Assembly (NCBI GenBank): GCA_016291595.1
Contig: JAEEXN010000006.1
Coordinates: 1 to 64,000 of the forward strand
Length of the DNA stretch: 64,000 nt
Origin: Prevotella sp.
GTDB taxonomy: Bacteria > Bacteroidota > Bacteroidia > Bacteroidales > Bacteroidaceae
Reading direction: 5' to 3'
Below the pieces are notes generated by a model. That model did no database searches and was not told where the DNA came from. It saw nothing but the letters and a program-made list of their open reading frames with translations. The position numbers and the translations under genes are program-made. Positions 46,396-49,457 of the stretch are shown piece by piece; positions within the stretch are counted from its first letter, which is position 1; the number at the start of each line of letters is the position of its first letter.

Positions 46396-47613
46396 CTACT
46401 TATTCTCATTAGAATTGCCCTGCATCCCCAACAACTCTTCCAACTCTTCTTGATGATTACCTTTCATGATAATATGGTGGTTGCCAATAGGATTTGTAAG
46501 GAAGTATTTAGCCTGCCGGGCATCATTCAACCGAATAACTTGTTGAGTGCGACAAAGGCCATTTTCTGCCTGATTGCGTATGAGCGTTCCTTGAGCAACA
46601 AACATGCGCGACAAGTCGCCAGCAAGTTTAAAAATAGTCATAGGTCCCTCTTCCACAAAACCACGAACACCTACCCCTATTCCCGACTCAAAATGGGTGT
46701 CAAGCTCATAACTATCTACCATATCCAGAGGGATTGTGCAATGCGCGAACAACAACTCTCCCGACTCGGGATTGATGCGCGCAGGATTCGCTTGGAAGCC
46801 TGAGCTGCCGGTTAACGAACGGGCAACCATCATAGAGAGCATGGATGGCACATCACCTTCGCATCCAGCTACAATCCCATCACCATTTAAACGTGCCAAT
46901 GCTAAACACCCTGTATTCTTTACCGCCGAGAGCAAATCGAAGCAGCGGATTGTAAAGCCCTGCAACTGATACTTTTGAACCAGATTACGCAAGGCTACAT
47001 ATATCTGCTCCGCCCCCGGTAATGCTTTCCGCACATCCTCTCGCAGAGTAACTTCGTTTGATACAGGCAGCGAACAATGGTTAACCTCATCAATTATTTC
47101 ATCAATACTAATATCAACTAAGTCTATGCCGAGAACGCTATTCAGTTTATCTGGATTATATATGCTTGAAATAAGCCAATCGGAAGGCCTTCCAATAACA
47201 CCCAGGCGACAACCGAATAGCTTTCTGCGAGCATGTTCTACACGCACCAACATACCTATACGTTGTCTTAAGTAGGCAGTATTGCCATGTAAGATTTCAC
47301 CGTCGGCACCTTGTTGGCGTAGATAGGAAAGAATTTCCATAGAAGCAGCCAACGAGTTGCTCTTACCAGAGGTTAACAGATAGAACTTCTTGCTTTGCTT
47401 GCGTAGAGTATTAAAACGGTCCTTAAAAATCCCCTCCGTTCCACCTGTTCGCACATAGATAAGATTCAACAAATACTTGCCGTACTCGTCGTAACTATCA
47501 TTTCTCAATTCATAATCTATTCCCAACTCAGCAAGAAAATGCTCAGTCTCATTAACCACTGATAAAGGATCGTGCAATGGCGATGTAAGCGTAAAAACAG
47601 CGATATCTGTCAT
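46396..47613 (-). CDS. Protein resembling sugar-isomerase (FucI/AraA-like) fold
   Basis: C-term GVRGFVEEGPMTIFKLAGDLSRMFVAQGTL...GNHHIIMKGNH suggests the fold; weak recognition. Confidence 0.45.
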   Translation of the reverse strand: MTDIAVFTLTSPLHDPLSVVNETEHFLAELGIDYELRNDSYDEYGKYLLNLIYVRTGGTEGIFKDRFNTLRKQSKKFYLLTSGKSNSLAASMEILSYLRQQGADGEILHGNTAYLRQRIGMLVRVEHARRKLFGCRLGVIGRPSDWLISSIYNPDKLNSVLGIDLVDISIDEIIDEVNHCSLPVSNEVTLREDVRKALPGAEQIYVALRNLVQKYQLQGFTIRCFDLLSAVKNTGCLALARLNGDGIVAGCEGDVPSMLSMMVARSLTGSSGFQANPARINPESGELLFAHCTIPLDMVDSYELDTHFESGIGVGVRGFVEEGPMTIFKLAGDLSRMFVAQGTLIRNQAENGLCRTQQVIRLNDARQAKYFLTNPIGNHHIIMKGNHQEELEELLGMQGNSNENK

Positions 47614-47765: not shown

Positions 47766-48863
47766 ATGAAGAAGTCAAAGGAATTAGGCATTCGCAAGCT
47801 TATCGCATTGGAGTTGGCTGCTCACATAAGCAGCAACATCCGTAAAGAGCATCCACTCAGGCAATTGTTCTGGGAATGCACTTTGCGATGTAATGTAAGC
47901 TGCCGCCATTGCGGAAGCGATTGTAGGAAGCTTTCTGACATCAATGATATGCTGCGCGAGGACTTTTTCCGTGTACTCGACAATATTGCAACAAAAACAG
48001 ATCCTCATCGAGTATTTGTTACGATAACAGGAGGAGAACCTCTTCTTCGTGATGATTTGGAACTTTGTGGACAAGGCATTTTTGAACGCGGTTTTCCATG
48101 GGGAGTTGTTACAAACGGTCTTGTGCTGACCCCAAAGCGCTTTGAGTCACTTTGCATGTCTGGAATGCATAGTATTACCATTAGCCTTGACGGACTTGAA
48201 GAGAATCACAATTGGATGCGCCGCCATCCAAATAGTTTCCAGATGGTTGACCAAGCTCTCGACCTGCTTGTCAAGAATCCTCAAATTGCCTCTGATGTCG
48301 TTACATGCGTCAATCAGCGCAATTACGACCAGCTTCCAGCTATACGTGACTATCTTATTAACAAAGGAATCGGTTACTGGCGCATCTACTCCATTTTCCC
48401 AGTAGGACGAGCAGCAAAAGACCCCGTGATGCAAATCAGTAATGAACAATACCGGGGTATGCTCGACTTTATCCGGCAGACACGACATGAGGGCAGAATC
48501 AACGCTTCATATGGTTGCGAAGGATTTTTAGGGCGTTACGAAGGAGAGGTAAGAGATATGTTCTTCGACTGCCAGGCTGGTGTGACGGTAGGCTCCGTTA
48601 TGGCAGACGGATCAATTGCCGCCTGCGCAAGTATCCGTTCTAACTATAGCCAAGGTAATATCTACGAGGACGATTTCATGGACGTTTGGGAAAACCGCTA
48701 TACTCTTTATAGAAGGCGCGACTGGATGCGCAAAGATGAATGTAAAGATTGCCGGTATTGGCGGTACTGCAGGGGAAATGGAATGCATCTACGAGATGAT
48801 GATGGAAACCTGATCCTTTGCCATTTGAAAAGAATAAATGAGATGGATAATAGTGTTAAATAA
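47766..48863 (+). CDS. Radical SAM/SPASM enzyme (rSAM/lipoprotein system type, TIGR04133-like)
   Basis: CTLRCNVSCRHCGSDC radical SAM motif; C-terminal SPASM cysteines (CASIR...CKDCRYWRYCRGNGMHLR...C). Confidence 0.88.
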   Translation: MKKSKELGIRKLIALELAAHISSNIRKEHPLRQLFWECTLRCNVSCRHCGSDCRKLSDINDMLREDFFRVLDNIATKTDPHRVFVTITGGEPLLRDDLELCGQGIFERGFPWGVVTNGLVLTPKRFESLCMSGMHSITISLDGLEENHNWMRRHPNSFQMVDQALDLLVKNPQIASDVVTCVNQRNYDQLPAIRDYLINKGIGYWRIYSIFPVGRAAKDPVMQISNEQYRGMLDFIRQTRHEGRINASYGCEGFLGRYEGEVRDMFFDCQAGVTVGSVMADGSIAACASIRSNYSQGNIYEDDFMDVWENRYTLYRRRDWMRKDECKDCRYWRYCRGNGMHLRDDDGNLILCHLKRINEMDNSVK

Positions 48864-48924
48864 TCTATAAATAGTGTTTATTTCAGTATTAATCATTAAC
48901 TTAGCAACATAAAAGATTTTGACC

Positions 48925-49212
48925 ATGATTAAAAGAATTCGTTACACAATCAACACCGTCCTTTCTGCCCTCATCGTTGCATTGGGGTTCGGTTCTTGTG
49001 TGTCACAGAAGACATATGAGGCAGCAAAGCAGGAAATCAAGCAGTTGCAAGAGGAGAACGAGATGCTAAAAAATGACAATAACACTTTAAGCAATGATGT
49101 CAAAAGGCTGAAAAAGAGTATTGCGGAGTATCAGAAAAGGATGGAACAACGTAAAGTTGTCTATGGTCCACGACCAACAGATTATAAGAAAAACATCAAT
49201 AACAAAGAATGA
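48925..49212 (+). CDS. Small lipoprotein next to the radical SAM enzyme (candidate substrate)
   Basis: MIKRIRYTINTVLSALIVALGFGSC lipobox, coiled coil, C-terminal VYGPRPTDYKK. Confidence 0.75.
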   Translation: MIKRIRYTINTVLSALIVALGFGSCVSQKTYEAAKQEIKQLQEENEMLKNDNNTLSNDVKRLKKSIAEYQKRMEQRKVVYGPRPTDYKKNINNKE

Positions 49213-49323
49213 TGTTTAGATATTCATTCTTCGTTATTATTTCTATTTGCTTGTGCTTAATTGATTGCTCTGGAGATAGAGATTTATTGAGATGAAGAGG
49301 ACACAAAGTCTACACAACAAAAA

Positions 49324-49354
49324 ACAGGGTCTTAAGCAAAAGCTTAGACCCTGT
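49324..49354. terminator. Intrinsic terminator-like hairpin
   Basis: ACAGGGTCTTAAGC-AAAA-GCTTAGACCCTGT. Confidence 0.7.
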
Positions 49355-49385
49355 TAGGTATTACAGTTAATGTGGGAATGAGAAG

Positions 49386-49457
49386 AGGTGCCTGGCGGAT
49401 TCGAACCGCCGTAGACGGTTTTGCAGACCGTTGACTAAGCCACTCATCCAAGGCACC
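49386..49457 (-). tRNA. tRNA-Cys (GCA)
   Basis: - strand GGTGCCTTGGATGAGTGGCTTAGTCAACGGTCTGCAAAACCGTCTACGGCGGTTCGAATCCGCCAGGCACCT. Confidence 0.92.

Follow-up and report, generated by a model that had tools for sequence, protein, structure and literature searches.

Does the radical SAM/SPASM enzyme encoded by one gene of this locus from a rumen-type Prevotella modify the small lipoprotein encoded just downstream, and if so, at which residues and by what chemistry? Such pairs are represented by TIGR04133/TIGR04134, until now a prediction from genome context alone with no chemistry attached. A sequence-only reading of the 64,000-nt stretch analysed here (the window) had placed the two genes in that system, with a TIGR04134-like partner carrying a C-terminal YGPRPTDY motif as its plausible modification site.

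The window enzyme and its lipoprotein neighbour

Both open reading frames described by the sequence-only reading are present, on the plus strand. The first (P0002, 47766-48863) encodes a 365-aa protein containing CTLRCNVSCRHCGSDC, which aligns to positions 2-349 of the 350 in the TIGR04133 HMM at 565 bits against a cut-off of 425, bearing out the family originally assigned; it is the one copy above cut-off in the window genome. Pfam Radical_SAM and SPASM also exceed their cut-offs, the SPASM domain (48570-48821) at 31.4 bits against 21.5. The CX3CX2C radical-SAM cluster with HCGS (CNVSCRHCGS, 47889-47918) is invariant across TIGR04133; the bridge between core and SPASM domain reads GFLGRYE (48522-48542), conforming to a signature, G[YF]xGxYE, that is present in 77 of 81 TIGR04133 enzymes; and each of the six SPASM cysteines (C269, C287, C326, C329, C335 and C352) is kept in at least 99% of aligned family members. 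An AlphaFold2 model of the enzyme (pLDDT 87.7) has as its nearest PDB folds the peptide maturases SuiB, SkfB and PqqE.

After a gap of 61 bp (48864-48924) follows the gene for a 95-aa coiled-coil lipoprotein, the proposed substrate (P0001, 48925-49212, ATG at 48925), which has 12-15 close homologues. Its signal peptide (48925-48999) ends in LGFGSC, within a ...VALGFGSC lipobox whose lipidated residue is Cys25; the form LG[FY]x(1-2)C is common among rSAM-adjacent lipoproteins. The motif VYGPRPTDY (49159-49185) contains the X-Y-G triplet V79-Y80-G81, where a motif logo and a PSSM match to splicease substrates mark the putative position of radical attack, at which tyramine would be excised from between V79 and G81. 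The VVYGPRPTDY stretch does lie near the C-terminus, as had been claimed, but not at its extreme end, as KKNINNKE comes after it.

The description of the partner as TIGR04134-like did not hold. TIGR04134, with a cut-off of 39.8 bits, is not among the families shown for the window lipoprotein, and a search of its own genome found zero copies above cut-off and none at the locus; membership is ruled out by HMM. What the window does have in common with the TIGR04133/TIGR04134 pair is a clear TIGR04133 enzyme and an adjacent lipoprotein whose shared traits are confined to an LGFxxC signal and XYGxP, whereas its partner is a coiled coil with the motif near the C-terminus and TIGR04134 proteins carry theirs just after the lipid anchor. 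No other family matches the lipoprotein above cut-off, and its weak matches are coiled-coil noise. Braun-type Lpp resembles it weakly in being short, helical and lipid-anchored with a distinct C-terminal tail; however, the score is far under any Lpp cut-off, the association is with a radical SAM partner rather than with peptidoglycan attachment, and an Lpp-type assignment was ruled out as merely weak coiled-coil similarity. Among the matches shown for the lipoprotein there is no Nif11/NHLP leader; it has a lipoprotein signal peptide instead. The window enzyme is, in short, an ordinary TIGR04133 member with an unmodelled lipoprotein partner.

In close relatives RKVVYGPRP is invariant and, together with the signal peptide, forms the best-conserved stretch of the lipoprotein. 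Indeed, the 16 copies of the motif among these relatives (class (a) below) are written in 15 distinct DNA sequences, and a motif that is invariant in protein yet variable in codons indicates selection at the protein level.

Several features surround the pair. On the minus strand, a strong hairpin (49323-49355, z -5.1) precedes a TTTTTTG run and adjoins a tRNA-Cys gene (49385-49457, minus strand); because the T-run is on that strand, the hairpin was ruled out as terminator of the rSAM/lipoprotein operon and probably ends tRNA-Cys transcription. A 28-aa hydrophobic ORF, MMFRYSFFVIISICLCLIDCSGDRDLLR (49209-49295), which begins with an ATG overlapping the stop codon of the lipoprotein gene, was set aside as a cassette member since it is not conserved in relatives. 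The divergent neighbour (46396-47613, minus strand) encodes a 405-aa sugar-isomerase-like protein with weak matches to the AraA central and fucose isomerase C-terminal domains, and a sigma-70 scan gave no signal above chance.

A YG-motif lipoprotein accompanies the enzyme family

We compared 81 TIGR04133 loci, namely the window and 80 relatives from one scan of genome contigs; the nearest relatives of the window locus are mostly ruminant Prevotella. Co-occurrence of enzyme and lipoprotein, run here as a refutation test of the pairing, held up: one or more small YG-motif lipoproteins adjoin the enzyme at 76 of the 81 loci (92 proteins in all). The five loci without an adjacent partner comprise two at contig ends (L061, L083), one without the gene (L029), and two in which it is displaced, 4.6 kb downstream in L015 and 28 kb away in L078. 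Linkage in the window's clade decays from 61 bp through 1 kb and 4.6 kb to 28 kb, with both genes still retained. Overall, rSAM-lipoprotein gaps have a median of 44 bp and are at most 100 bp in 65 of the 84 measured.

The partners belong to four unrelated architectures whose only common features are a signal peptide and an X-Y-G-x-P motif. Class (a), the clade to which the window belongs, consists of coiled coils with C-terminal VVYGPRP. Class (b) proteins are short and rich in Pro and bear YGxPP once or twice; in class (c), of TIGR04134 type, EYGTPxADY comes immediately behind the lipid anchor; and class (d) proteins are again coiled coils, but have YGGPN at an internal position. Across the enzyme phylogeny the partner architecture switches at least seven times, and XYG is retained throughout. 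Other lipoproteins of the same loci provide a built-in contrast: of the short lipobox ORFs, 66 of 102 close to the rSAM gene have a YGxP-type motif versus 2 of 89 elsewhere (Fisher p ~3e-22), and an LG[FY]x(1-2)C signal occurs in 79 of 92 rSAM-adjacent lipoproteins versus 3 of the 128 remaining lipobox ORFs; these three include the displaced L015 partner. Clustering of neighbours within 3 kb at the 81 loci returned no consistent third partner gene (RRE, protease or transporter), the next-best family reaching 16 of 81.

Some loci depart from the simple pair in other ways. At L027, L034, L039 and L064 there are partners that contain XYG two or three times, and some loci have two or three partner genes; a partner at L071:5648-5989 has two YG motifs and a signal-peptidase-I-like site (AMAQ) in place of the lipobox. 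In most close relatives (L012-L022) a gene starting MDKVSYALGLGIG, by appearance an FKBP/Mip-like prolyl isomerase, directly follows the lipoprotein; it stayed beside the lipoprotein when the enzyme separated (L015), and it is absent from the window.

Of 251 genomes sampled from the same family, 71 have TIGR04133, 29 have TIGR04134 and 27 have both (p ~6e-15); 44 of the 71 TIGR04133 genomes in the sampled family have no TIGR04134 match, and where the loci of such enzymes were read, the partner was a lipoprotein of an unmodelled kind. G296 and G367, with TIGR04134 and no TIGR04133, are exceptions, as is G355 (an assembly 84% complete), with class-a-like lipoproteins and no TIGR04133 above cut-off. 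In G452 a TIGR04134 copy (C1:1538470-1538856) is remote from the rSAM gene, and in G534 the match of a 65-aa frame (C2:183106-183264) is limited to positions 1-52, the first third of the TIGR04134 model. A wide sampling of the class shows TIGR04133 to be sparse (4 of 295). Outside the phylum, plasmid pTS1 of Treponema saccharophilum carries a TIGR04133 enzyme with a lipoprotein alongside, annotated as 'radical SAM-associated putative lipoprotein', that has SCYGMPENYY at its lipobox.

Composition of the X-Y-G motif

We derived a motif logo and PSSM from 109 YG sites in 83 dereplicated lipoproteins, dropping four signal-peptide YG sites for the PSSM. Residue X (position -1) is L in 42 of the 109 sites, V in 24, E in 21, M in 12, I in 3 and C in 2; in some partners (L038, L084 and Treponema) it is the lipidated Cys itself. 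Pro occupies position +3 in 75 sites and +4 in 54, and Tyr or Phe occupies +7 in 54. The second Tyr of YGPRPTDY was ruled out as a reactive partner, and is probably not the reactive residue, because close relatives have either Tyr or Phe at this position and many others lack it. Nor is the Gly absolute: YAGP in L080:5669-5974 and YAARP in L086:7065-7346 are possibly degenerate or tolerated sites.

That the motif is a plausible modification site, as originally suggested, gains strong support from this comparison across partner lipoproteins. Given that a partner is near-universal, that no consistent third gene is found, and that both genes were kept after linkage broke, XYG is very probably the enzyme's target.

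Resemblance to spliceases

We take IPR026482, the entry for PlpX, to be the same family as TIGR04103. The PlpXY splicease excises tyramine at X-Y-G, naturally at MYG and LYG, with loss of C8H9NO and a dispensable leader (PMC10533398); PlpX (IPR026482) works with the RRE protein PlpY (PMC11002830). A tblastn search of plasmids with the window enzyme recovered a Nostoc TIGR04103 locus (identity confirmed at 853 bits) in which a Nif11 precursor ends RGSIALYGLPPELF, with core SIALYGLPPELF, and the enzyme is followed by a protein of 71 aa. As in TIGR04133 partners, X-Y-G stands in the associated protein, in the form LYGxP(P) in both the Nostoc core and the PlpA2 tag. Scored with the PSSM built from TIGR04133 partners only, against a background of 627 YG sites taken from long ORFs, the Nostoc core falls within the top 0.5%, the published PlpA2 tag within the top 0.8% and PlpA3 within the top 5%, in a comparison that was made after the similarity to splicease motifs had been noticed and with a small splicease reference set. 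Misfits to the same PSSM are the DUF1843 partners of TIGR03913 enzymes (23-42%) and the Treponema lipoprotein, a poor fit at 12%.

The enzymes share features as well. HCGS and G[YF]xGxYE are common to TIGR04133 and to the radical SAM/SPASM enzymes of TIGR04103 and TIGR03913, taking the form GYYGPYE for the second in the Nostoc TIGR04103 and TIGR03913-type enzymes; both are absent from mycofactocin MftC, TIGR04053, TIGR04347, two Paenibacillus proteins, one from Subdoligranulum and one AhbD-like protein. The TIGR03913 GDL-motif maturases, with these same two signatures, are ~48% identical to TIGR04103, and several of their DUF1843 partners carry YG (PYGPAM, PYGAGI); unlike the partners studied here, however, DUF1843 proteins are small non-lipoproteins. 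At L160:3186-5389, L163:1787-3937 and L172:537-2931, TIGR03913-type enzymes have DUF1843 proteins as neighbours, and in several of these PYG occurs close to the N-terminus.

TIGR04133 is the third-best match (175 bits) of an Aureibacter TIGR03913-type enzyme, and the Nostoc TIGR04103 enzyme scores 152 bits on TIGR04133, level with AhbD; the window enzyme reaches 100.5 bits on TIGR04103, whose cut-off is 725, and scores at least as high on several other SPASM families. A 34-protein tree with a limited reference set puts TIGR04133 and the splicease/GDL group on the same side with a support of just 91/76. Because the TIGR04103 cut-off is missed and no RRE partner was found in the loci, we do not class the cassette as a splicease. 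It differs further from Nif11/NHLP spliceotide systems in that the TIGR04133 partners have no Nif11/NHLP leader, the proposed substrates being Sec-exported lipoproteins. From these likenesses of motif and enzyme, we put at even odds that splicease-type chemistry (tyramine excision, -135 Da, leaving a ketoamide) would act on exported lipoproteins. This link is new relative to the sequence-only reading, which named no chemistry. Neither TIGR04133 nor TIGR04134 is mentioned in the papers searched here; spliceases were reportedly surveyed widely by Scott et al. in 2022, and the splicease assignment may already have been published.

Proposed mechanism and alternatives

The best explanation, to which we assign a probability of roughly 50%, would be a two-gene protein-modification cassette that excises tyramine at the XYG of its lipoprotein. 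The enzyme family, its partner, the motif, the joint retention of the two genes and the sequence likeness to splicease enzymes and substrates are observed; the modification of the motif, its chemistry, its order relative to export and its biological role are what we infer. Specifically, the TIGR04133 enzyme would bind the precursor lipoprotein in the cytoplasm, before Sec export, with the LGFxxC signal segment perhaps doubling as a leader for cytosolic recognition. Radical attack on the X-Y-G-x-P site (V79-Y80-G81 in the window) would then excise tyramine between V79 and G81 to yield a ketoamide, after which export, lipidation and envelope display would present a tethered electrophile.

It is possible, if not our first choice, that the enzyme acts on the same XYG motif by another radical reaction, whether a Tyr crosslink (cyclophane or ether), epimerisation, hydroxylation or loss of the Tyr side chain. 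Many of these reactions are known for SPASM enzymes, the predicted structure most closely resembles the crosslinking maturases SuiB, SkfB and PqqE, and the motif is Pro-rich with a second aromatic often at +7. However, a Y-G-X cyclophane requires a beta carbon at X, and Gly stands at +2 in 16 of the 109 sites, so that a three-residue cyclophane is disfavoured by these YGG sites; the +7 position, being Tyr, Phe or something else, cannot be a required crosslink partner; and the motif has no conserved Cys for a thioether. An invariant Tyr-Gly behind a variable residue has, moreover, the look of a splicease site.

An unlikely reading moves the enzyme's substrate elsewhere, to a small molecule or another protein, and leaves the lipoprotein as an accessory or sensor with XYGxP as a binding motif. 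TIGR04133 is indeed about as near to the haem-pathway enzymes NirJ2 and AhbD as to the splicease family, yet no other gene is conserved in TIGR04133 loci, and four unrelated architectures with only a signal peptide and motif in common suit substrates better than an accessory fold. That an ordinary lipoprotein, its motif serving some envelope-binding role, merely happens to lie beside an unrelated rSAM gene is very improbable: coiled-coil lipoproteins are common in Bacteroidales, which counts in favour of chance, but this reading is already contradicted by the comparative data, in which the association is near-universal, the pair is kept after rearrangement, and other lipoproteins of the same loci contrast statistically with the partners.

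Implications for Bacteroidales

Returning to tyramine excision at XYG, protease inhibition has been reported for the ketoamides that spliceases produce (PMC11117315; PMC10373908). By analogy with these reports, the most plausible role for the displayed electrophile, though a doubtful one, would be to trap or inhibit proteases with P1 = X. More generally, we tentatively propose that TIGR04133 may be a second, RRE-independent splicease-like lineage working on Sec-exported lipoproteins, with anchored ketoamides, often as several warheads on one protein, acting as protease traps or protein crosslinkers.

The partner set now spans four architectures instead of one family, and the hypothesis predicts a specific mass change (-135 Da) on a specific motif peptide. 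In major bacteria of the gut and rumen, these membrane lipoproteins are a possible site of protein backbone splicing. If the hypothesis is true, the enzyme could be used for labelling without a separate RRE partner, and Bacteroidales, as well as at least one Treponema, would display membrane-anchored ketoamide proteins in gut and rumen, placing reported protease-inhibiting groups on bacterial envelopes.
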